A stretch of 64,000 bases of DNA, taken from assembly GCF_014203275.1 (NCBI RefSeq), contig NZ_JACHIP010000003.1:744001-808000 (forward strand), written 5' to 3'. This document shows, in pieces, positions 28,953 through 42,149 of the stretch (position 1 is its first letter; every line of letters starts with the position of its first letter). The position numbers were made by a program, and so were the translations under genes. The DNA comes from Granulicella aggregans (lineage in GTDB: Bacteria > Acidobacteriota > Terriglobia > Terriglobales > Acidobacteriaceae). Under the pieces are notes generated by a model. The model saw only the letters and a program-made list of their open reading frames with translations. It was not told the origin of the DNA and did not search any database.

Positions 28953-30965
28953 TTAGTGGGCACCCGGGAGCGAATAGTTCGGTATGGTCAAGCCCACTTG
29001 ATGAACTAATGCCACAAATCTCGCATCGTCGTGGAGATTGTCCAGCATAGGATTTGTGGCCAGAAGAATCGCCGCACCATCGTGCTCGGAAATGACGCGC
29101 TGAATAGCCGAGATAGCTTTGTCACGTTGACCTGTGAAGGCATACCACTCAGCGGGGTCAAAATCGTTCCCTCGACGAGTGGTTTCAGGAGAGTGCCGTT
29201 CCATGGCCTCGAGACGCGCAAGCGCGTAGGCTTGGATACCTCCGCGGTGGTACGCCGCCCGACCACGCTCTTCCAGAGCTATGCGAGCCGAGTCCTTGTC
29301 CATCTCGGCCATTCGACCCCATTCGGCCAACGCCTCGTCATAGCGGTTCGCTACGAAATAAGCCCAGCCGAGCTGGTTGTGGCTTTCGGGGGAGTCGGGC
29401 ACAAGGGACTGATACCTTTGGGCAAAGGCAATCGCCTGGTTGTTGTCGTGAGACACGCCGGCAACATACGTCGCCATACTGTAGACCAGAGGCCAGAGCG
29501 GGTCGTCAGCAACAGCGCGGTCGATCTCCGCCATTGCTTCATCGAAACGCCCCTCGTACACCAGCAACGAGGCCAGCCATGCGTGATAGGTAGACTTGCG
29601 CGGATCAAGCTCGATCGCGCGCCGCAGTTCACGTTCGCTAAGAGCGAAGTTCCATTCAGAGCGTAAGGCAACATCGCCAAGAGCAGCATGAGCCTCTGCA
29701 AGTGCGGGGTCTAGTTGTAAGGCTTGCTGGGCGAGTTGCTTGGCTGCGTTCTGGTGTTCGATAGGATTTGAGAAGTAGCGCAGCGCGAGATGAGTGACCG
29801 CCATGCCGGCATAAGCCTCGGCAAACTTTGGATCACGCTGAATTGCTGTCTGGTAGTGCCCCAAAGCTTGGTTCAGGGCCATAACGTCACGGATTCGTGT
29901 CAACTCGCGCCCTTGCAAATACTCGCCATAGGCCTGAGGGTCATCCGTGCTGCCACGAAGCGCTTGCATGGACTTTCCCGTACCTTGAAGGGTCAGGAAG
30001 ATGTCCCGTTGCAGCTTGTCGCGGACGCCGGCCAGTTCATCTTTGCTGCCTTCATACTGAAACGATGCCAAATGGAGCGAGTCGCGACTACGAACAAGTT
30101 CGAATTCGACCTTGCAACGATCGCCCGCTATTCGAAACTTGCCGAGTAAAACCATATCCAGATGAAGTTTTTCGGAGATGCTGCGAATGCCGCTGTTGTC
30201 GCGGTTAATGTTGTTCAAGGAATTCGTCGCTGTGATTCGAACGATTGGAATTTGCGCCAGCGCATCCGCTAAATCGAGACGGAAACTCTCTCCGATCTCT
30301 TCCGCCCCTGAACCCTCTGTCTGAAAAGGCGCGATTCCGAGTGACACGGTAATCGTTTCAACAACCGGGGGTTGCGGCCGATGTCGGTAAACTGCGATGG
30401 CGATTATGAGCAGCATGGGAACCACAGCCAGAAGAAGCCAGCGATACCGTTCTAAAGATCGCCTTGGTAGAGGATGAACCTCCCGGAGCGCGTCGTTCTG
30501 CTGCGGATAACCAGAGTCGGGGGCCACCAGAGACAGAGGTGATTCGGTTTGCGAACTCTCCACGCGCGATTCGACAACCGAAAGTTCCTGTTCCTCCTGG
30601 GTGTCGGCACCAGGACTCATAGCTTTACTTGTAGGCGGAATCACGGAGATCTTAGGAATAAAACGGTATCCGCGTTTGTGGACGGTTCTGATGTATTTCG
30701 GGTTCTTGGGATTGTCTCTAAAAACGGCTCGCAAGTCCGCTATCACGCGGTTGATGGCGTGCTCATGGTCCAGAAACTCGCCCTCAGGCCAGAGCAGCTC
30801 TTGGAGCTCGGCACGTGTAACGACTGTACCCGGCCGTTCCAGAAAGATTTCCAAGAGGCGCGAGGTCTGTTTCGGCATCCCGACCCGTTTGTCCCCACGC
30901 ACGAGATCGCCCGAAGAGAGATCAAATTGGAAGTCCAAAAAGGACACCAGCTCTGTTTTGGCCAT
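28953..30965 (-). CDS. CadC/ToxR-like membrane transcription regulator with TPRs
   Basis: 670 residues. Residues 1-105 are an OmpR/PhoB-type winged helix: recognition region DHEHAINRVIADLRAVF (66-82) and wing KYIRTVHKRGYRFIP (90-104). A linker of about 65 residues leads to one membrane helix (about 174-193). The outer part contains a FlgO-like segment (about 205-320; it includes LGIAPFQTEGSG) and TPR repeats (about 340-600, such as AEAYAGMAVTHLAL and AEAHAALGDVALR). Proteins of this type bind DNA without a phosphorelay and sense conditions across the membrane. It is divergent from the second S53 protease gene with 285 bases between them, so regulation of that protease is a plausible role (inference). 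Confidence 0.88.
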   Translation of the reverse strand: MAKTELVSFLDFQFDLSSGDLVRGDKRVGMPKQTSRLLEIFLERPGTVVTRAELQELLWPEGEFLDHEHAINRVIADLRAVFRDNPKNPKYIRTVHKRGYRFIPKISVIPPTSKAMSPGADTQEEQELSVVESRVESSQTESPLSLVAPDSGYPQQNDALREVHPLPRRSLERYRWLLLAVVPMLLIIAIAVYRHRPQPPVVETITVSLGIAPFQTEGSGAEEIGESFRLDLADALAQIPIVRITATNSLNNINRDNSGIRSISEKLHLDMVLLGKFRIAGDRCKVEFELVRSRDSLHLASFQYEGSKDELAGVRDKLQRDIFLTLQGTGKSMQALRGSTDDPQAYGEYLQGRELTRIRDVMALNQALGHYQTAIQRDPKFAEAYAGMAVTHLALRYFSNPIEHQNAAKQLAQQALQLDPALAEAHAALGDVALRSEWNFALSERELRRAIELDPRKSTYHAWLASLLVYEGRFDEAMAEIDRAVADDPLWPLVYSMATYVAGVSHDNNQAIAFAQRYQSLVPDSPESHNQLGWAYFVANRYDEALAEWGRMAEMDKDSARIALEERGRAAYHRGGIQAYALARLEAMERHSPETTRRGNDFDPAEWYAFTGQRDKAISAIQRVISEHDGAAILLATNPMLDNLHDDARFVALVHQVGLTIPNYSLPGAH

Positions 30966-31250: not shown

Positions 31251-34200
31251 ATGAATCCCGCGCGCCCCTTTTCGCCCTTTTTCCGTAGCTGCATCGCAAT
31301 GGCGCTCGTAGCGACTTGTGCCTTCGCTCTACCGTCGAACGCTTCCTCTCAGGTTCGAAATACGATCGACGGAACATCCCGCGCAAAGATCGGCCCAGTT
31401 GATCGTGTGCGCGGGGCCGTTACCGGGGAGCGTACGGCTTTGAAGGGGCAGACGCGTCCGTTGGCTCGCGAGGCAGTGGACCTTGGAGAGGCTCCGGCTT
31501 CCCTTGCCAGCGGGAGAATGGTGATATGGCTTCGCAGGAGCGTCGAGCAACAGGCTCAGCTCAGCCAGTTCCTCAGTCAGACACAGAAGGCCGGCTCCGC
31601 AAATTACAGGCACTGGATGACGCCGGCCACCTTTGGCGCGGCCTATGGAGTCTCGGACCACGACCTGGCAGCGGTGCAGAGCTGGCTGCAATCGAGCGGC
31701 CTGAAAGTAGAAGGGGTCGCGGCGGCTCGTAATGCCGTTATGTTCTCGGGCACGGTGGGATCGGTTGCTGGCGCCTTCCATACAAGCATCCATCGCTACA
31801 CCGTGGGGCAGCAGACGCACTTCGCAAACGCCGCCGACCCGGAAGTCCCGACGGCGCTCGCTCCGGTCATTGCCGGGGTCTCGCCCATGAATGATTTTCA
31901 CGCCGAGCCCCTGCTTGTTCATGGAAAACCGGCGCGCTACGATGCGGCCTCTCATCGTCTGAAGCCTGCAATCACCGGCGATAATCCCGATGGCAGCTTC
32001 GACCTCTTCGTCACCCCGGCCGACGCCTCGATCATCTACGACACGCCCAATCAGAACTTCAATCCCGCCGCAACGCAGACGTTGGACGGAACCGGGATCA
32101 CGATTGGCATCCTTGGCTACTCCGCTCTGGCTATGGCCGACGTGCAGAACTACCGCACAGCCTTCCTGCCCGCCGCAGCAGCCAGCAACCTCCCAACCCA
32201 AATCCTCGACGGAGCGATCGATCCCGGCATTATCCCCGGTGGCGCTGCAGACGAAGCTCTGCTGGACGTTGAAATCGCAGGTGGCCTCGCCCCCGGTGCG
32301 GCAATCAACTACTACTACGCTGCTTCGACGGATCTATCCGACGGCTTGATTCTCGCCGGTCTCCATGCGCTCGAGGAGAACAAGGTCAACATTCTCAGTG
32401 TCAGCTATGGGAATTGCGAGGCAGGTCTCGGACTCGGCGGCAACCTTGAGTGGTCTGAGCTGTGGCAACAAGCCGCAGCACAGGGAATTACCGTCACCGT
32501 CTCGACTGGCGACACCGGCTCAGCCGGATGCAATCTTCAGTCAGACACCCAGGCCACAAACGGGCTTGCCGTAAGCGGGCTTGCGTCGACACCCTTCAAC
32601 ATTGCGGTCGGCGGTACAGACTTCTACTCTCTGGCAAACAACCTGAGCACGTACGTCAACACCACGACCACGGGTGCATATCCGTACTACGCAACCGCGC
32701 TCAGCTACATCCCCGAGAATCCCTGGAACGATTCCTCGCAGGTAATCGGGAATAGCTTCACCGACAACACTCCTGCCTATAACGGAATTGGAGAGACGGA
32801 TATCATAGCGGGCGCCGGCGGTCTCAGCAGCGCGGCGACTTGCCAGGGGTACATCCAGCAAGATGGAACCTGCTCTCAGAGCCTCTCGGGCTACCCCCAG
32901 CCTGCATTCCAGACAGGTTTCCAGTCGATCAATCCCGTTCGCTCCCTTCCCGATGTGTCGCTCCTCTCCGCGAACGGATTCTTCGGCGCAGCATGGGTCT
33001 TCTGTTCCGATTCAGTCACGGATGCGGGTGGCGGCGTCTACACCGATTGCCAGCTGGACGCGAACGGCCACCTTATCAACGACCAGTATGTTGGGACGGT
33101 CGGCGGCACTTCAGCCGCAGCACCCGCCTTTGCCGGAATGCTGGCGATGATCTCGCAGTCACAGGGCGGTGCTCGCCTCGGACAGGCCGATGCGGTCCTC
33201 TATAACCTCGCGCAGGACTACAACCCGAATCCTAGTAGTCCAGGCAAATATCAACGGGCTTTTCACGACGTCACGATCGGCAATAATTCGGTCTACTGCG
33301 CAAGCGGCACTCTGAACTGCGGTTCAAACAACTTCCTTGAAGGCTATAACGCAACGCCGAGCTACGACATGGCTACCGGACTGGGCAGTGTCGATCTCTC
33401 TCAACTCGTCAGCCTGTGGGGCACGACGAACTTTGCGAGTACGAGCAACGTTCTCACCGCTGGAACCTCGAGCGATTCGCTCTCGACCGCTGCCATCACC
33501 ATTCCCCACGGAACCCCGCTCTACTTCGAGACCAACGTGACACCGAGCGATGCGACGGGGCAGTTCAGCATCATCGCCAGCAACACCACCAAGCCGGCTA
33601 GCTATTCGGATTTTGCGCCTGTGACAGGCACAGGCGATCTAACGAAAAATGATCTTCCCGGCGGCACGTACACCGTCTCCGCCTACTATGCAGGCGACAC
33701 GAGCCATATCGCCAGTCAGTCGTCGAACAGCATCAGCCTCACGGTCAGCCCCGAGGCCAGCACAACATCGCTCTTCTTCGGCGACTATGACCCGACCACC
33801 TTCGTGATCAAAGACGGGCTAAGCACTGTGCCGTACGGCGTCAACTCCTACGTCACCGCACAGCCTTTCGGCAACAGTTCGGTGGTTGATTACACCGGCA
33901 ACCTGCTTGCGGACGGACTTCCTACAGGGAGTGTCACGTTCACTTCCAGTGGACAGACACAGACCACGCCGATCAACAGCCTAGGCTACGCGCAGATTTC
34001 TATCAGCTCACTCGCTCCGGGAACCTACACCTATCAGGCCAGCTACCCAGGCGATGCGAGCTTCCAGTCAAGCACCAGCTCAACGCAGTCGCTGACGGTC
34101 ACCAAGGGCCTCACCTTGTTCTCTTTGCCACAAGGCGGAGGTGCAGTGACCCCGGTGAATGTATTCCAGTTCAACGCCCTCCTTCAGACGGACAGCGTCG

Positions 34201-35630
34201 CGCTCTACCCCACCGGAGGAATCACGGCGACCGCGAATGGTCACACCTACGCTCCGCTTGGCTCGGTGCAAGGGCAGTTGAATGGTGTGGATGCCACCGA
34301 ACTCACCTTCTCGATCCCAGCTTCTGATCTGGCAACCGGCTCCAATGTCATCAGCATCAGCTACAGTGGCGATGGAAACTACCAGTCTGCGACTGCCACG
34401 ACCAACGTGACCCTCGTAGGATCATCGGGCAGCTATAGTCTTAGCGGACCGACCCAGCCGCTGGTGGCGGAGGCGGGCCAACAGACTTCGACCACTATCT
34501 CGATCACTCCTTCGAATGGGTTCACAGGATTGGTCAGCATGGCCTGCACGGTCAGCGCAGCTGCGACAGGACACACACCGACCTGCGTCGCTGCATCCTC
34601 CACGGTCTACGGAAGCTTTGGAGCCACGTCAGCCGTCGCAATCAATACCTTTGCCGACACACCAGCCGCAAACTACACGATCACTGTCACCGGGACGAAC
34701 GGTACGCAGAGCCAATCGGCACAAGTGCCCATGCAGGTGACGGCTGGTCCTGGCTTCACACTCGCCGCCGCGAGCAATTCGCTCTCGATCTCGGCAGCAG
34801 GACAAATGGCAAGCGATGTCCTTACGCTCTCGCCGACTCAAGGGTTCACAGGAAACTTGGCCCTCAGCTGCGTGATTGCGCCTATGCCGTCGACGGGTAA
34901 ACCAGCCACATGTTCCTTGCCGGGTAACGTGGCCCTTAGCTCGAGCACGCCAGCGACAGCAACCCTCCAGGTGGCGACAGACAGCACAACACCGGCGGGT
35001 GCTTACACCGTTACAGTGACGGCCTTGTCCGGCCTGCTCCAGCAATCAGTGTCCGCGTCATTTACTCTCCCGCAGTTAGCGGCAACACCTGCATTCGATC
35101 TCTCAGCTGCCAGCAGCGCCCTATCGATTGCTGCCGCCGGTGAGTCAGTGGCCGACACACTAACCATCCGTCCTGCGGGCGGATTTACAGGCACGGTTCA
35201 GTTGAGCTGCACGGTCGTTGCATCCGCGACCGCAACGACGGCTGCTCCCACATGCACCGTACCCTCAACCGCCTCCGTCACCGGTGGTTCCGTCGTAACC
35301 GCGATCCTGACCGTAAACACGACATCGTCATCGGCGAAGCTTGCCCCTGCTGAAGGTGGGATGCTCGCAAAGCGGACCGGCGGCATAGCCCTCGGATGCG
35401 TGCTGATGTTCATGATCCCGCGCCGAAGGAAATGGATGGTTCTGGGTCTGTTCATTCTGACTCTTGGCAGCCTGGGCATCACCGGCTGCGCTGGCGGGGG
35501 CTCACAATCCGGAACAACTACAACGACTGGCGGATCTCCCGGCACACCGGCAGGCGGATACACCGTGACGGTCACCGCTACCAGCGGCTCGATCACTAAC
35601 ACCGCGCAGGTCCAAGTGACGGTGCAGTAA
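31251..35630 (+). CDS. Secreted S53 peptidase with Ig-like repeats and unusual C-terminal anchor
   Basis: 1,459 residues. Signal peptide about 1-34 (FFRSCIAMALVATCAFALPS). The pro-domain includes NYRHWMTPATFGAAYGV. S53 catalytic residues are present: Glu/Asp in DEALLDVE (about 334), Asp in STGDTGS (about 419) and Ser in GGTSAAAP (about 618). A calcium-site pattern follows (FHDVTIG, then MATGLGSVD). Residues ~720-1350 are Ig-like repeats. The end is unusual: a hydrophobic helix (GGIALGCVLMFMI), a basic PRRRKW, a second hydrophobic stretch (LGLFILTLGSLGITGC) with a lipobox-like ITGC, then a Gly/Thr-rich stretch and a last strand GYTVTVTATSGS. This may anchor the mature enzyme to the membrane. 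It is divergent from the CadC-like regulator. Confidence 0.9.
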   Translation: MNPARPFSPFFRSCIAMALVATCAFALPSNASSQVRNTIDGTSRAKIGPVDRVRGAVTGERTALKGQTRPLAREAVDLGEAPASLASGRMVIWLRRSVEQQAQLSQFLSQTQKAGSANYRHWMTPATFGAAYGVSDHDLAAVQSWLQSSGLKVEGVAAARNAVMFSGTVGSVAGAFHTSIHRYTVGQQTHFANAADPEVPTALAPVIAGVSPMNDFHAEPLLVHGKPARYDAASHRLKPAITGDNPDGSFDLFVTPADASIIYDTPNQNFNPAATQTLDGTGITIGILGYSALAMADVQNYRTAFLPAAAASNLPTQILDGAIDPGIIPGGAADEALLDVEIAGGLAPGAAINYYYAASTDLSDGLILAGLHALEENKVNILSVSYGNCEAGLGLGGNLEWSELWQQAAAQGITVTVSTGDTGSAGCNLQSDTQATNGLAVSGLASTPFNIAVGGTDFYSLANNLSTYVNTTTTGAYPYYATALSYIPENPWNDSSQVIGNSFTDNTPAYNGIGETDIIAGAGGLSSAATCQGYIQQDGTCSQSLSGYPQPAFQTGFQSINPVRSLPDVSLLSANGFFGAAWVFCSDSVTDAGGGVYTDCQLDANGHLINDQYVGTVGGTSAAAPAFAGMLAMISQSQGGARLGQADAVLYNLAQDYNPNPSSPGKYQRAFHDVTIGNNSVYCASGTLNCGSNNFLEGYNATPSYDMATGLGSVDLSQLVSLWGTTNFASTSNVLTAGTSSDSLSTAAITIPHGTPLYFETNVTPSDATGQFSIIASNTTKPASYSDFAPVTGTGDLTKNDLPGGTYTVSAYYAGDTSHIASQSSNSISLTVSPEASTTSLFFGDYDPTTFVIKDGLSTVPYGVNSYVTAQPFGNSSVVDYTGNLLADGLPTGSVTFTSSGQTQTTPINSLGYAQISISSLAPGTYTYQASYPGDASFQSSTSSTQSLTVTKGLTLFSLPQGGGAVTPVNVFQFNALLQTDSVALYPTGGITATANGHTYAPLGSVQGQLNGVDATELTFSIPASDLATGSNVISISYSGDGNYQSATATTNVTLVGSSGSYSLSGPTQPLVAEAGQQTSTTISITPSNGFTGLVSMACTVSAAATGHTPTCVAASSTVYGSFGATSAVAINTFADTPAANYTITVTGTNGTQSQSAQVPMQVTAGPGFTLAAASNSLSISAAGQMASDVLTLSPTQGFTGNLALSCVIAPMPSTGKPATCSLPGNVALSSSTPATATLQVATDSTTPAGAYTVTVTALSGLLQQSVSASFTLPQLAATPAFDLSAASSALSIAAAGESVADTLTIRPAGGFTGTVQLSCTVVASATATTAAPTCTVPSTASVTGGSVVTAILTVNTTSSSAKLAPAEGGMLAKRTGGIALGCVLMFMIPRRRKWMVLGLFILTLGSLGITGCAGGGSQSGTTTTTGGSPGTPAGGYTVTVTATSGSITNTAQVQVTVQ

Positions 35631-35726: not shown

Positions 35727-38108
35727 ATGCGAAACCTATTTGATTTGCGAAAGGTCGAAGAGATGAAAAGCGGAATGAAGTTTGGTGCCTCCACTCTGTT
35801 CGCCATGGCATGCGCATTTGCGGTCGGTTGCAGCGGCGGCGGGAGCAAGTCGACGGCTCCCGCGACGCCTGTCACGTACACCATAGGCGGCACCGTCTCG
35901 GGACTTACAGGCACCGGTCTTATCCTTGAAAACGCCGGCGGCAACAGCCTTACCGTGAGCGCGAACGCCACCACCTTCAGCTTCAGCACGCCGGTCCCCA
36001 CCAGCGATGTGTACAGCGTGACGGTGTCCGCCCAGCCCGCCGGGGATAGCTGCGTGGTGGCCAACGGAAACGGCACAGCAACCGCCAACGTCACCAGCGT
36101 TACAGTCACCTGCACAGCTCTGGACACCATCGGCGGCACAATCTCCGGCCTTGTCAACCCGGGACTGATCCTTCAGGACAATGGCAGCGATCGCCTGACC
36201 GTAGCCGCCGACGCGACTAGCTTTAGCTTCCCTACCCCGCTAGCCAACGGTGGTAGTTACATGATCACGGTTCTCACTCAACCTCTCGGCGAAACCTGCC
36301 TGGTGAGCAACGGCAGCGGCACAGCTGCTGGTGCCGTCACCAATGTCGCCATAGCCTGTACGCCGCAATACGATATCAGCGGCACAATTACGGGTCTGGA
36401 TGACGCAGGCCTGGTCCTGCAAGACAACGGCGGCGACAATCTGACGGTGAATGCCCACTCCGCCGATTTCACCTTCCCAACTCCAGTGGCCGCAGGCGGT
36501 ACCTTCAGCATCACCGTCCTTACTCAGCCCGCGACTGAGAACTGCACCGTAATCAGCGGCAGTGGCACGGCAACCTCCAATGTCGCCAATGCAAGTGTTG
36601 TCTGCGTCGGCGATTGGACCTGGACAGCTGGCAGCGGCACTCTCGGCCTCAACGGCGGACAGCCCGGAATCTACGGCACTCTCGGAACCCCGGCTCCCGC
36701 GAACCTTCCTGGAGGACGTTCACAGGCATCCACCTGGACCGACGCCTCAGGCAATCTCTGGCTCTTCGGCGGCAACGGAAAAGACGTGAACGGAACCGGC
36801 GGGCAGCTCAACGACTTGTGGAAGTTCGATCCTGCCGCAGGCACGAACGGCCAGTGGACCTGGATCAATGGCAGCGCCATCAACATTCCATCCATATCTT
36901 CTTCCTTCCCGCCCGGAGCGCCAGGAGTCTATGGCACATTGGGAACTGCCTCTCCCACAAACGCTCCAGGAGGCCGTGAGCAATGCGCCAGTTGGAAGGA
37001 TGCAGCGGGCAATCTCTGGCTCTTCGGCGGCATCGGAATCGACGTGAACGGAGTCTACGGATACCTTAACGATCTGTGGAAGTTCGACACGCAGGCCAGT
37101 CAATGGACATGGATGGGCGGCAGCAACACCGTCTTCTATTACGGTGGTCACCCCGGAATCTACGGCACACTCGGGACCGGAGCCTCCGCAAACATCCCGG
37201 GAGGCCGCTACGGCGCGGTCACCTGGATCGACGCCTCAGGAAACTTCTTCCTATTCGGCGGCAATGGTGTCGTTACTGATCCAACTAGCGGGAACACGGT
37301 AACTGCTGGGCTCAATGACCTATGGGAATACACCCCCGCAGGCAACAGCAACGCAGGCGAGTGGACCTGGATCGGTGGCAGCAGCACTGTGCCGCCCAGC
37401 AACAACCCATTCGGCGGCTCAAGCGGTCAACCCGGAGTTTATGGGACGCTGGGAACCGCAGCCTCGGCGAATATACCCGGAGGACGACAGTCCGGCACCA
37501 GTTGGACGGACGCGTCAGGAAATTTCTGGCTCTTCGGAGGTCTGGGTGTCGACTCGGCTGGCAACAACGGTTATCTCAACGACCTGTGGGAGTACACGCC
37601 CGGTACCGCTGGAAACGCCGGACAGTGGACATGGCAGAGCGGAGCGAACACCATTGGCAGCAACGGCGGCCAACCCGGAAACTACGGCATCCAGGGAACG
37701 ACAGCCTCCTCCAATGTCCCCGGAGCGCGATTCAGTCCGTCAGCTTGGGTGGATCCGTCGGGTAACTTCTGGATCTTCGGTGGCCAGGGCTACGACTGGA
37801 CCGACACAACTGGATTGCTGAATGATCTGTGGAAGTTCACACCCAGCACGGCGGGCGATCCGGGCAACTGGACATGGATGGGCGGCAGCGATGCAGTCCC
37901 CCCACCCGTAGGCTTTGTCTCGAACCTTGGTCAATCGGGAGTCTATGGCACGCTGGGTACCCCGGCCCCTGCAAACACTCCAGGGGGGCGACTGGGCGCA
38001 GCCACCTGGGTCGATGCATCCGGTAACCTTCGACTCATGGGCGGCCAAGGTGACGACTCGACCGGTACCCAGGGTTACCTCAATGACCTATGGCAGTATC
38101 AGCCATGA
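35727..38108 (+). CDS. Kelch-like repeat lipoprotein
   Basis: 793 residues with a lipoprotein signal peptide and lipobox AVGC (Cys35), followed by GGGS. Three tandem beta modules of about 85 residues come next (about 48-305). Each begins GGTxSGL or GTITGL, has a GLxLQDNGGDxLTV strand and ends at a conserved Cys. Six or seven kelch-like repeats of 65-75 residues fill the rest (about 305-793), each with WTW, PGxYGTLGTxAxxNxPGGR, WxDASGNxWLFGG and LNDLW. These should form a propeller outside the membrane. Function is unknown; ligand binding is likely. GGGAG lies seven bases before the ATG at 35727; an ATG at 35763 would give a shorter leader. Co-transcription with the protease upstream is possible. 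Confidence 0.85.
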   Translation: MRNLFDLRKVEEMKSGMKFGASTLFAMACAFAVGCSGGGSKSTAPATPVTYTIGGTVSGLTGTGLILENAGGNSLTVSANATTFSFSTPVPTSDVYSVTVSAQPAGDSCVVANGNGTATANVTSVTVTCTALDTIGGTISGLVNPGLILQDNGSDRLTVAADATSFSFPTPLANGGSYMITVLTQPLGETCLVSNGSGTAAGAVTNVAIACTPQYDISGTITGLDDAGLVLQDNGGDNLTVNAHSADFTFPTPVAAGGTFSITVLTQPATENCTVISGSGTATSNVANASVVCVGDWTWTAGSGTLGLNGGQPGIYGTLGTPAPANLPGGRSQASTWTDASGNLWLFGGNGKDVNGTGGQLNDLWKFDPAAGTNGQWTWINGSAINIPSISSSFPPGAPGVYGTLGTASPTNAPGGREQCASWKDAAGNLWLFGGIGIDVNGVYGYLNDLWKFDTQASQWTWMGGSNTVFYYGGHPGIYGTLGTGASANIPGGRYGAVTWIDASGNFFLFGGNGVVTDPTSGNTVTAGLNDLWEYTPAGNSNAGEWTWIGGSSTVPPSNNPFGGSSGQPGVYGTLGTAASANIPGGRQSGTSWTDASGNFWLFGGLGVDSAGNNGYLNDLWEYTPGTAGNAGQWTWQSGANTIGSNGGQPGNYGIQGTTASSNVPGARFSPSAWVDPSGNFWIFGGQGYDWTDTTGLLNDLWKFTPSTAGDPGNWTWMGGSDAVPPPVGFVSNLGQSGVYGTLGTPAPANTPGGRLGAATWVDASGNLRLMGGQGDDSTGTQGYLNDLWQYQP

Positions 38109-38342: not shown

Positions 38343-41300
38343 CTAGAAGTCGAAGCGAAGAGCGAGCTCCATAATGCGGCGCCCCTCGCGGAGCGGAGCA
38401 CTTCCGAAACCGGTGTTCACGTTTCGGTCGTTGTTAAGACCTCCGTCGGCAGAGGTCTGCGGCGTGGTCTGGTTGAAGTTGAGGGTGTAGTCGTTGGTAC
38501 GCACGGATGTGAAACTGTTGTTGCCATGGTTGATGAAGTTGAAAGCAGCGGCCTTCAACTGGACGCTGGTCTTCTCCGTGACCGCGAACCGCTTCGCGAC
38601 GGTAAGGTCGGTGTTGAAGAAGCCAGGGCCCGGAAGGAAGCCATAGCGGTAGGCTCCGTTGGTCCCAATGCTGGGAACAGCGAATGCGTTGCCATTGACA
38701 TACTGGTGTTGGCCACGTCCCGCAGCAGGATTGCCGACGAGCAGAGGCTGAAGGTTTACGTCCGGAGTTCCAAGGATGTTGGTGTTATTGATTGCCAGCG
38801 AGCAAGAAGGGTTGGGGTTTGCTTCTGAGGGTGCTGGCGTCTGGCAGCTACCGCGTCCATTGCCAAGATCCACGCCGTTCGCGATTGCAATGTTGCCGCC
38901 GAGTGAGAAATTGGGATTGTTGATGGACGGCAGGTTTGAACCGCTCTGATAGTTGGATATACCGGAGACCTCCCAGCCATTCGCTCCGAGACCAAGCAGC
39001 TTGCTCTTCACGAGATTGCCGAACTGATAGGAGTACGCAGCATTGAAGATGTGGCGATGGTCGTAGGTCTCTTCCAGGTAGTCATTGTGGAGATTGAAGG
39101 GATCAGCAGGGTAGCCATTGTTGTATCCCCCGAGAACCCCGAGCGCCTTTGAGAAGGTGTAGTTTATGCCGAAGGTAGACTTGCCCTGCTGCTTGGCAAC
39201 AGCGACCTGGAGACCGTTGTAGTTTGCGTACAGGTTATGCTGCGCGATGTAGAGGTGGTTGTAGAGCGGGTACTTCTTGTAGCTGTCGATGTGCGCCTGG
39301 TCGAGGCCGCCGACGGTAGAGTTGCTGGAGGTGTCCCCGGGTGCAGCAAAGTTCGGATAGACCTGGCCGACGTTTGCAAATCCGCGAGTGTTCGGCTGCG
39401 GCTGGAAGAGCGAGCCAATGGGAAGCGAGTTCAGGTCGTCGAGGGTGGTGTTCTGCGACGAGCCATTGTTGAGGATATGGTTACTGTTGTTGCCGACATA
39501 GGCGACTTCAAGCAGCATGTTCCCGGGAAGGCGCTGGTCGACCGAAAGGTTGTAAGTCTTTACCTGGGGCTGCTCGTCGTCGTTGGCCATGAAGCCGTAG
39601 GCATTCACGTCTGGACTAAAGCCGCTCGGGTTGGTGAAGAGCGAAGCCTGCGAACTGATCGATGAAAGGTTAATCGGGCCGTTCAGATACGCGGTGCGCT
39701 GTCCCTGTACGGTTCCTACGCCGTTGGTTGCGTCGTTAGAGGAGTCGTGAGCTCTGTAAATGCCGAAGCCGCCACGAACGATTGTCTTGCCTCCGCCGTA
39801 GGCGTCCCATGCGAATCCGACCCGAGGTTCGACGTAAGCCCAGCGGGTCCCGAGCCCTGCAACGGGAACACTCTTATCGATCGAATGATAGGAGAAGCCA
39901 GGCAGAGCCGGGTTCGAATTGGCGGCGTACGCAGCGGGCGAGAAGACAGGGATGCCCTGACCGTGCGCGTCGCCCCAGGGAGTGAAGTGCTCAAACCGGA
40001 TGCCGAGATCCAGCGTAAGACGCTGGGCGATACGCCAGTGGTCCTGCACATAGCCGTCGAGGTTGTAGAAGAAGACGTTCGGTGCTGGAGCGAAGTTTGT
40101 CTGGTTGTATTGAAAGACATGTCCTTCGGCGAAGTTGGCAAGGTAGTTACCGCCATTTCCGCTGCCGACCTGTCCGGTATTGTGAACGGTCCCTGCGACG
40201 GGATCGGTATAGGATTCGGGGAAGTAGTACAGGTTGATAGTCCCGTTGGTGTTTACGAATGGCAGAACCTGGTGGTTGCTGTCGAGCTGATAGAAGACGC
40301 CGGCACGAACGGTGTGCTTCCCGAGAACCTTGGTGAGATTGTCCCCGAAGGTCCGGATCACCTTTGTGGCGTAGATACCTCCAAAGGAGCCGTCGGGCAG
40401 GCGGGAGAGCGGAAGGCCATCGTTGCCATAGTCTTCGAGAGTGGGCTGGACCGTGCTCCCGTTGTTGAAGAGACCCTGGTAGGGATTGCCTTGGGTCGCC
40501 GCCAGGTTCTTGGGAGCAAAGTTCTGCTTGAAGTAGATCCCCGCGCCGTAGAACTCGTTGGTGAGGGTGGGCCCGAAGATTGTCGTGAGGTTGAGGCTGG
40601 CGATCTGCGAGTCGATCGTGCTGACAAGGCCACCCCCTGGGATGTTGACGCCGCCAAGGTTACCGCGAGGGGAGTAATACTCTGCTTGCGGAACGCCGTT
40701 CGTGCCACGCTCTACGCTATAGACGCCGAAGATCTTGTTTCTGTCGGAGATGGAGTCGTCGACCCGGATCTTCGCCTGGTAGAGGTTGTTGTCGACCAGA
40801 TTCGTCGTGATCCAGTTATAGGTGCCGTTGCTTGTTGAGTTCGGCAGAGGCATCTCTTTCAAGATGACCGAGGAGAGAGGGTCGAGGAAGGCAGAGACGT
40901 TGCCGTTCACAAGAGCCTGACCTTGAGGTCCAGTGGTCGGGATGGTGCATAGGTTCGCATCGGTACCGCTGCAGCCGTTGACTGTTGGCGTATATCCGGA
41001 ACCAAGATACTGCTGCAGTTGAGCGCCACTAAAGTCGCCGGCGCGCATGCCTGCAGTTGGGACAAGAGCGGTCAGGACGGCACCCGCAGCTCCACCATAG
41101 GCATAGGAGTTCCGTTGCGCGTACTGCTCTGCTCCGACGAAGAACGTCAGCTTCTTCGACTTGTTGAAGGGGATGCCGGGGATAGCGAGCGGGCCGCCGA
41201 AGGTAAAGCCTGGGTAGACTTGGCGATCTGGCGGCTTTTGCTGGCCGGTGTAGTTAGCGATCCAGTCGGTGGAGTTGAGTTGGGAGGTACGAGCGTACGT

Positions 41301-42149
41301 GTAGAGCGAGCCGTGGTATTTGTTGCCTCCCGACTTACCGACCGCGTTGACAACGATAGGGCCGCGGGCTCCGTCGGCAGTGAAGCTCGAGGTCTGAACT
41401 TTTACCTCCGCAACCTGCTCATAATTTATGTTTTGGACCGCTCCACCGAAGTTGCCTGGATCGGTGACATCGGCGCCGTCCGACAGCAGGGCAACTCCGT
41501 TTAGGGGGGTACCATTCGCTGCGTACGAGCCGAGAGCTCCGTTTACCGAGACCTGCGACGGATCGTACGCCTGGTTGTCAATGTTTCCGCCGCCGCCGCG
41601 GGAGATTGCGAAGCCGGGGAGGATCTTGAATAGTTCCGTGACATCGCGGCCTTCAACGGAAAGGTGCTCGATGTCCTGCGAGGAGATGAGCGAACTTTGC
41701 TCTCCAGAATCCAAGTTGATAGAGTCACTTCCGCTCGTGACTTCAACGACGTCATTGGCACCACCAGCGATCAAATGAATGTCGCGTACGGATCTTTGGT
41801 CACCCGGATCGAGGTGGATGGCGTTTTGCTGGAAGCCCTTGAAACCTGACGCGCTGATCAGAACGTCGTAGTTGCCGGTCGGGACGCCAGAAAAAGAGAA
41901 GATTCCCGAGCCATTGCTGGTGGTGGTGCGCTTGTCGTCGCTGGTCTCACTCTTAAGCGTTACCTGAGCGTTGGGGATGACGGCTCCGGTCGAGTCTGTG
42001 ATCGTTCCGCCGAGTGTCGCGGTCGTTCCCTGGGCGAAGGTCAGCGTAGAAGTGAAGAGCGCAAAGAACGCCAATGCCAAAAAGTGGAACGGCTTCATTA
42101 GGTTTGTGACGTGCGAGGTATTGCCGCTTGCTCTGGGACCTGTGTGCAT
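38343..42149 (-). CDS. TonB-dependent receptor with carboxypeptidase-regulatory-like N-terminal domain
   Basis: 1,268-residue outer-membrane protein of the Oar-like type abundant in acidobacteria. The signal peptide is MKPFHFLALAFFALFTSTLT (from residue 18). A CNA-B/carboxypeptidase-regulatory-like domain follows (about 42-125, beginning ATLGGTITDSTGAVIPNAQV), then a plug domain (about 140-260, with SVEGRDVTELFKILPGF). The barrel ends in ELALRFDF with the C-terminal Phe usual for outer-membrane barrels. The start at 42149 has AGGAG 11 bases ahead; ATG 42098 would start directly at the signal peptide. The substrate is probably a large glycan or oligosaccharide, given the adjacent glucuronoxylan genes, but no SusD-like partner is present. 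A short palindrome lies upstream. Confidence 0.93.
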   Translation of the reverse strand: MHTGPRASGNTSHVTNLMKPFHFLALAFFALFTSTLTFAQGTTATLGGTITDSTGAVIPNAQVTLKSETSDDKRTTTSNGSGIFSFSGVPTGNYDVLISASGFKGFQQNAIHLDPGDQRSVRDIHLIAGGANDVVEVTSGSDSINLDSGEQSSLISSQDIEHLSVEGRDVTELFKILPGFAISRGGGGNIDNQAYDPSQVSVNGALGSYAANGTPLNGVALLSDGADVTDPGNFGGAVQNINYEQVAEVKVQTSSFTADGARGPIVVNAVGKSGGNKYHGSLYTYARTSQLNSTDWIANYTGQQKPPDRQVYPGFTFGGPLAIPGIPFNKSKKLTFFVGAEQYAQRNSYAYGGAAGAVLTALVPTAGMRAGDFSGAQLQQYLGSGYTPTVNGCSGTDANLCTIPTTGPQGQALVNGNVSAFLDPLSSVILKEMPLPNSTSNGTYNWITTNLVDNNLYQAKIRVDDSISDRNKIFGVYSVERGTNGVPQAEYYSPRGNLGGVNIPGGGLVSTIDSQIASLNLTTIFGPTLTNEFYGAGIYFKQNFAPKNLAATQGNPYQGLFNNGSTVQPTLEDYGNDGLPLSRLPDGSFGGIYATKVIRTFGDNLTKVLGKHTVRAGVFYQLDSNHQVLPFVNTNGTINLYYFPESYTDPVAGTVHNTGQVGSGNGGNYLANFAEGHVFQYNQTNFAPAPNVFFYNLDGYVQDHWRIAQRLTLDLGIRFEHFTPWGDAHGQGIPVFSPAAYAANSNPALPGFSYHSIDKSVPVAGLGTRWAYVEPRVGFAWDAYGGGKTIVRGGFGIYRAHDSSNDATNGVGTVQGQRTAYLNGPINLSSISSQASLFTNPSGFSPDVNAYGFMANDDEQPQVKTYNLSVDQRLPGNMLLEVAYVGNNSNHILNNGSSQNTTLDDLNSLPIGSLFQPQPNTRGFANVGQVYPNFAAPGDTSSNSTVGGLDQAHIDSYKKYPLYNHLYIAQHNLYANYNGLQVAVAKQQGKSTFGINYTFSKALGVLGGYNNGYPADPFNLHNDYLEETYDHRHIFNAAYSYQFGNLVKSKLLGLGANGWEVSGISNYQSGSNLPSINNPNFSLGGNIAIANGVDLGNGRGSCQTPAPSEANPNPSCSLAINNTNILGTPDVNLQPLLVGNPAAGRGQHQYVNGNAFAVPSIGTNGAYRYGFLPGPGFFNTDLTVAKRFAVTEKTSVQLKAAAFNFINHGNNSFTSVRTNDYTLNFNQTTPQTSADGGLNNDRNVNTGFGSAPLREGRRIMELALRFDF

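Follow-up and report, generated by a model that had tools for sequence, protein, structure and literature searches.

An exported S53 peptidase of Granulicella aggregans ends in a hairpin of two hydrophobic helices, the second of which resembles a lipoprotein signal complete with its lipobox Cys, and in our profiles and structure model this hairpin is inserted into a single Ig-like domain, ahead of the final two strands. The hairpin and the conserved lipobox are read from the sequences themselves, and the interruption of the domain, seen in sequence and model, is new in this analysis. On balance, we favor the view that the tail is an exported two-helix anchor in which helix 2 serves as internal lipoprotein signal, is lipidated by Lgt and probably cut by LspA, with the lipidated two-strand tail kept in the Ig fold.

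The host gene (31251..35630, plus strand of the window, the whole stretch of 64,000 nucleotides analyzed) codes for a kumamolisin-like peptidase of 1459 aa with Ig-like repeats, and all features of this protein given below are on the same strand. The protein matches Pro-kuma_activ (1.2e-27) and Big_3_5 (1.4e-18), and its solved relative by sequence is kumamolisin 1t1e (3.3e-20, residues 60–465). The pro-kumamolisin domain, together with similarity in the catalytic domain, would place it by sequence in S53. It starts with a putative Sec-type signal peptide of ~34 residues (MNPARPFSPFFRSCIAMALVATCAFALPSNASSQ, 31251..31352, boundary set by eye), whose best 12-mer has a mean hydropathy of 2.39. 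An earlier note on this DNA had spoken of an exported S53 protease of ~1,400 residues, and this description holds. Upstream lies a Trans_reg_C/TPR regulator (28953–30965, minus strand). The gene immediately downstream (35727–38108, plus strand) codes for Kelch repeats and has an ordinary N-terminal lipoprotein-like start (AVGC, then S), which makes it a handy control next to the tail protein; it is followed by a large outer-membrane barrel with a carboxypeptidase-regulatory-like domain (38343–42149, minus strand).

The C-terminal sequence of the protein reads TAILTVNTTSSSAKLAPAEGGMLAKRTGGIALGCVLMFMI-PRRRKW-MVLGLFILTLGSLGITGC-AGGGSQSGTTTTTGGSPGTPAGGYTVTVTATSGSITNTAQVQVTVQ. Helix 1 of the membrane hairpin is predicted at residues 1371–1387 (35361..35411; residues 92–108 of the structure model, block pLDDT 53–70). 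It is followed by the basic loop PRRRKW (35418..35435), expected to be cytoplasmic, and by helix 2 (residues 1395–1412, 35433..35486, from sequence and model), the hydrophobic core of the putative internal lipoprotein signal. The lipobox ITGC occupies 35478..35489, with Cys 1413 at 35487–35489. Beyond it come a flexible Gly/Ser/Thr linker (residues 1414–1434, 35490..35552; pLDDT <50 at model residues 132–148) and two strands (residues 1435–1458, 35553..35624) that complete the split Ig-like domain, as predicted from the model and its fold match. The succession of helix, PRRRKW, helix, ITGC, and Gly residues had been recognized in the earlier note, within 34980–35630; instead of the single last beta-strand that it placed after the Cys, there is a two-strand hairpin (model residues 156–166 and 169–179).

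The tail belongs to a curated family, NF058595 “invert_tail” (77 bits, cut-off 37), entitled 'lipo-invert putative C-terminal anchoring domain' in NCBIfam release 20.0 of June 2026, and 17 out of 17 aligned relatives match this model at E ≤ 0.01. The literature searched (few subscription journals, bioRxiv preprints excluded) yielded no description of invert_tail. The signal is hence not undescribed, as had been supposed: it is already named in a database, although its mechanism is without description in the literature searched. The one-line description of NF058595 goes no further than a putative anchor; this analysis adds the split Ig-like domain and a Cys-blind test.

Inspection of 125 matches gave 121 tails, four loci (L135, L136, L153, and L154, among 100 fetched) being dropped as they lack the hairpin. 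The loop of these tails has on average 4.5 K/R and 0.04 D/E, and helix 2 has 12–26 residues, mostly 17–20. Helix 2 ends in a Cys in every one of the 121, a count from a script that looked for Cys and from which a Cys-less tail would drop out. The residue at −1 is G in 95 tails, A in 15, S in 10, and P in one, i.e., G/A/S in 120 of 121; position −3 is L, A, M, I, or V in 97, and +1 is G or S in 111. The strict pattern [LVI][ASTVI][GAS]C is found in only 55/121 tails and the looser [LIVMFT]x[GAS]C in 95/121. The published lipobox consensus is [LV][ASTVI][GAS]C, with known variations (PMC8048626). With RRRK, 18 residues, and then ITGC, the tail of the window has the elements of a lipobox signal, the I at −3 being slightly off the [LV] of the consensus; the N-terminal placement typical of bacterial lipoproteins is absent, as the Cys is residue 1413 of 1459. 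The earlier impression that this second part resembles a lipoprotein signal therefore stands, given the basic start, the core of 12–26 residues, and the small residue before the Cys.

To counter the bias of a model that weights the Cys, this residue was masked to X in a profile built on hairpin and tail, and 60 genomes of the family were searched with it. The sample comprised 70 places (30 loci and 40 from lower down among the matches listed), of which four repeats were excluded. The Cys is present in all 66 new tails, 65 of them found by script and one (L235, TLISCGGG) by eye. Because the script for this set favored a Cys preceded by G/A/S, the statistics for −1 rest on the 121 tails. Over the joint 187 tails the information content is 6.4 bits at the Cys, 2.2 at +1, and 2.0 at −1, the last value being partly predetermined in the 66 tails of the masked search; position −3 forms a local peak (1.2 bits versus 0.5 at −4 and −2). 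Further informative positions are the Gly/Ser at +2 (1.4) and +3 (1.2), position −15 in the Leu-rich core (1.3), and position −20 in the basic loop (1.9). Judged by sequence, this profile fits the published lipobox (PMC8048626). In N-terminal lipoproteins taken for comparison, 13 have G/A/S at −1, among just 20 cases. An invariant Cys with such restricted neighbors goes beyond what a plain anchor needs and argues for a lipobox.

The first part of the split Ig-like domain is predicted at residues 1280–1359 (35088..35327; model residues 1–80, pLDDT of 78–96 in ten-residue blocks). Directly before it lies an unbroken Ig-like repeat (residues 1166–1279, 34746..35087), matched at 58 bits across the junction by a stitched profile (L003). 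In this profile the Ig part preceding helix 1 was joined to the part following the Cys, with the hairpin omitted, and the upstream parts of the 121 proteins were searched. There are 40 significant upstream copies in 20 of the 121 proteins, and 33 of them (in 14 proteins) cross the junction. A second run gave 1683 bits in total (41 matches), versus 1248 when the last part was absent, 1335 when it was shuffled, and 1355 when it was reversed. Moving the last part to the front gave 1710 bits, as expected for tandem arrays, so that the profile test reveals one interrupted period and not the edges of the domain. In terms of long matches (≥100 columns) the shuffled profile has 27 and the stitched one 30, nearly equal numbers, and it is therefore the gain in bits alone that supports the last part. 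Unbroken copies of the joined domain also occur in other families.

The edges of the domain are addressed by a structure model, made with AlphaFold on 180 residues from 17 sequences of the window and the named loci. Block pLDDT is 78–96 before the hairpin and 85–95 on the strands after it, the linkers being of low confidence. The model aligns with Vpr 594–700 (Z 12.9, 1.9 Å, 103 residues aligned, model residues 2–180) and with a sialidase domain, 404–502 (Z 12.3, 2.1 Å, 98 aligned, model residues 1–180), both of which are contiguous Ig domains of ~100 residues. Since only ~80 residues precede the hairpin and the alignments run to the last residue, the strands after the Cys appear to be included in the fold. 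Foldseek itself scores these matches modestly, the best having E 2.3e-4 and a low TM-score (0.39, by model length) of the kind that an insertion would produce. An earlier model of the last two domains, built on 9 sequences, was unusable (pLDDT 42.9). In three tails of the same genome (L022, L024, and L025) another entire Ig-like domain separates the Cys from the last two strands, which are retained.

In its own genome the tail is frequent, with 25 matches to NF058595 at E ≤ 0.001, 17 of them above the cut-off. Among eight other tail proteins of this genome, PNGaseA-like, FG-GAP, and TIG domains were found (last ~600 residues scanned), and this variety indicates that the tail is a module. A Sec-type signal peptide was recognized by eye in 20 of the 23 tail proteins inspected (of 25), with L004 and L019 weak; of the remaining three, one frame begins at a contig edge and two lack a convincing start. 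For L011, an N-terminal lipoprotein is an alternative reading of the start. Named relatives of the S53 protein belong to Silvibacterium, Acidipila, Acidobacterium, Terriglobus, and Granulicella or are from Acidobacteriaceae MAGs, which is why we take the own family to be the Acidobacteriaceae; 14 of the 16 relative loci have a tail with the Cys, the exceptions being a locus cut by the contig end (L172) and a distant actinomycete match (L178). In Terriglobus albidus, three different tail-bearing ORFs lie inside ~8 kb (L174). In one tail (L166:7752–8336) the part after the Cys is like the end of a Big_3_5-type repeat, not the usual hairpin.

In a sample of 149 genomes of the phylum, all 15 genomes of the own family match NF058595, at 5–23 places each. 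Among the 134 genomes of other families, 53 match at E ≤ 0.001, two of them above the cut-off, and the hairpin tail was confirmed in none, the best places having been inspected in 16 of them (15 loci from the NF058595 search and five from the masked profile, partly overlapping). What these places contain is either an Ig-like domain without interruption or the usual start of an N-terminal lipoprotein; the script detected nothing tail-like in four of these loci (L044, L046, L049, and L051). Hence, elsewhere in the phylum, in the places inspected, the Ig-like domain and the lipoprotein start occur separately. The Cys-masked profile matches 58 of the 60 family genomes at E ≤ 0.01 and, in the phylum sample at E ≤ 1e-4, all 15 own-family genomes and five of the other 134. 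Two family genomes (G154 and G170) have no match to it, and another (G174) has 55. None of the 14 control genomes from other phyla has an NF058595 match above the cut-off. The recurrence for which the earlier note suggested searching is thus there: the pattern is common to many different exported proteins of the family.

Lgt and LspA have been described for N-terminal signals (PMC8048626). Each of the 15 own-family genomes sampled has exactly one LspA, which rules out a dedicated LspA for the tail. Lgt has at least one copy in all 15 and at least two in 13. An extra Lgt is not required as a special enzyme, as two tail-bearing genomes (G023 and G121) have a single one. A second, divergent Lgt homolog (51 bits) is found at L158 (G000:C1:636849–637517). 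The co-occurring processing enzyme envisaged earlier was therefore not found, in the sense that no special LspA exists in these 15 genomes. Neither in the 20 columns before the loop nor in the linker of a 20-row alignment was a conserved cut site seen; release of the body is consequently not predicted.

Donor-strand complementation in pili and split CnaB/SpyTag-type domains provide examples of an Ig-like fold completed by a separate strand. The tail differs from these in that a single gene encodes both parts, and what is missing is a pair of strands connected through a membrane hairpin. As in N-terminal lipoproteins matured by Lgt, LspA, and Lnt (PMC8048626), there is a basic start, a hydrophobic core, and a lipobox Cys that should lie at the outer face of the inner membrane. 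Unlike in these, a first membrane helix precedes the signal, which is 47 residues away from the C-terminus, and the protein has a separate N-terminal signal peptide. The tail also recalls MYXO-CTERM (linked to myxosortase), a C-terminal module with an invariant Cys, a membrane helix, and a basic cluster, present on many exported proteins (PMC11980579). There, lipidation has been proposed and the helix is cut off, and the authors remark on the inverted topology and the missing lipobox (same source). The order of the tail is reversed relative to that module as there described, with two helices, the Cys after the second one, and beta-strands at the end, so that it has neither a Cys before a single C-terminal helix nor a basic very end. 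GlyGly-CTERM, associated with rhombosortase, similarly combines a C-terminal hydrophobic region with positive residues on exported proteases, and, unlike the tail, it is without second helix, lipobox, or beta hairpin in the description available (PMC6219818).

The tail would then be a modular membrane and lipid anchor on many exported proteins of one family, which we take to be the Acidobacteriaceae. The N-terminal signal peptide would export the body until helix 1 halts transfer; the PRRR loop would remain cytoplasmic, and helix 2, as an internal lipoprotein signal, would start the export of the last ~45 residues. The positive loop implies that both Ig parts are outside and that the Cys lies at the outer face of the inner membrane. 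Outside the cell membrane, the last two strands may fold back into the Ig-like domain interrupted by the hairpin. A Cys so placed is where Lgt and LspA act, which makes lipidation likely: the housekeeping Lgt would add diacylglycerol to the lipobox Cys. Cleavage before the Cys by the single LspA is plausible because position −1 is restricted. The product would be a peptide of ~47 residues, lipidated and two-stranded, that the Ig domain of the body holds non-covalently; the body would keep the helical hairpin, unless a second protease takes it off. Topology, lipidation, cleavage, and final membrane of the tail are what we infer in this scheme; counting against it are that this signal, unlike those for which Lgt and LspA are described, is tethered behind a first helix, and that only 55 of the 121 tails have the strict lipobox pattern. 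More tentatively, and with rather less than even confidence, one may propose a two-chain Ig tether, in which beta-strand complementation, not a covalent bond, links the body to the lipidated tail cut by LspA; after a second cut that removes the hairpin, the tail might even carry the body to the outer membrane.

The tail might instead be lipidated and left uncut, the lipid on the Cys making a third membrane contact, with LspA inactive on the tail and one chain in the inner membrane. The evidence from the Cys and the lipobox applies equally to such a protein, its split domain would remain covalently closed, and a dedicated LspA is absent; we regard it as unlikely, given that the G/A/S before the Cys in 120 of 121 tails is like a cut site and that the housekeeping LspA is present. 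An ordinary two-helix membrane anchor, the Cys having another role or none, is quite unlikely. Two hydrophobic helices and a strongly positive loop would suffice for it, but the Cys occurs in every tail inspected from the Cys-blind search, preceded by a small residue, and the 20 columns before the loop, i.e., the helix 1 region, reach at most 49/121 Leu in an alignment anchored on a loop of variable length.

We give still less credence to a sorting signal for a dedicated CPBP, rhombosortase, or exosortase-type enzyme, as in MYXO-CTERM or GlyGly-CTERM. Helix 1 and the basic cluster resemble such tripartite tails, and an invariant Cys is found in MYXO-CTERM too (PMC11980579). However, the Cys comes after the helix here and before it in MYXO-CTERM (same source), and no conserved motif was seen before helix 1. 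Finally, the gene end could give a separate small lipoprotein from an internal translation start, as MIPRRRKW...ITGC in the window resembles a lipoprotein signal that includes a Met of its own. This is very improbable: only 34/121 tails have a Met (ATG starts only) in the 10 residues ahead of the loop, compared with 17/121 for a control stretch 15–25 residues before it, and helix 1 and the split domain are retained.

If the lipidated, LspA-cut anchor that we favor is correct, the rule that bacterial lipoproteins are N-terminal would have to be widened to a signal that lies within a folded domain close to the C-terminus, and the tail would be a self-assembling, non-covalent surface tether, possibly a new way of tethering proteins to cells. 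The split Ig domain sharpens the question of function. As the tail is found on a protease, a PNGaseA-like protein, and others, the localization of many exported proteins of these bacteria would depend on it.
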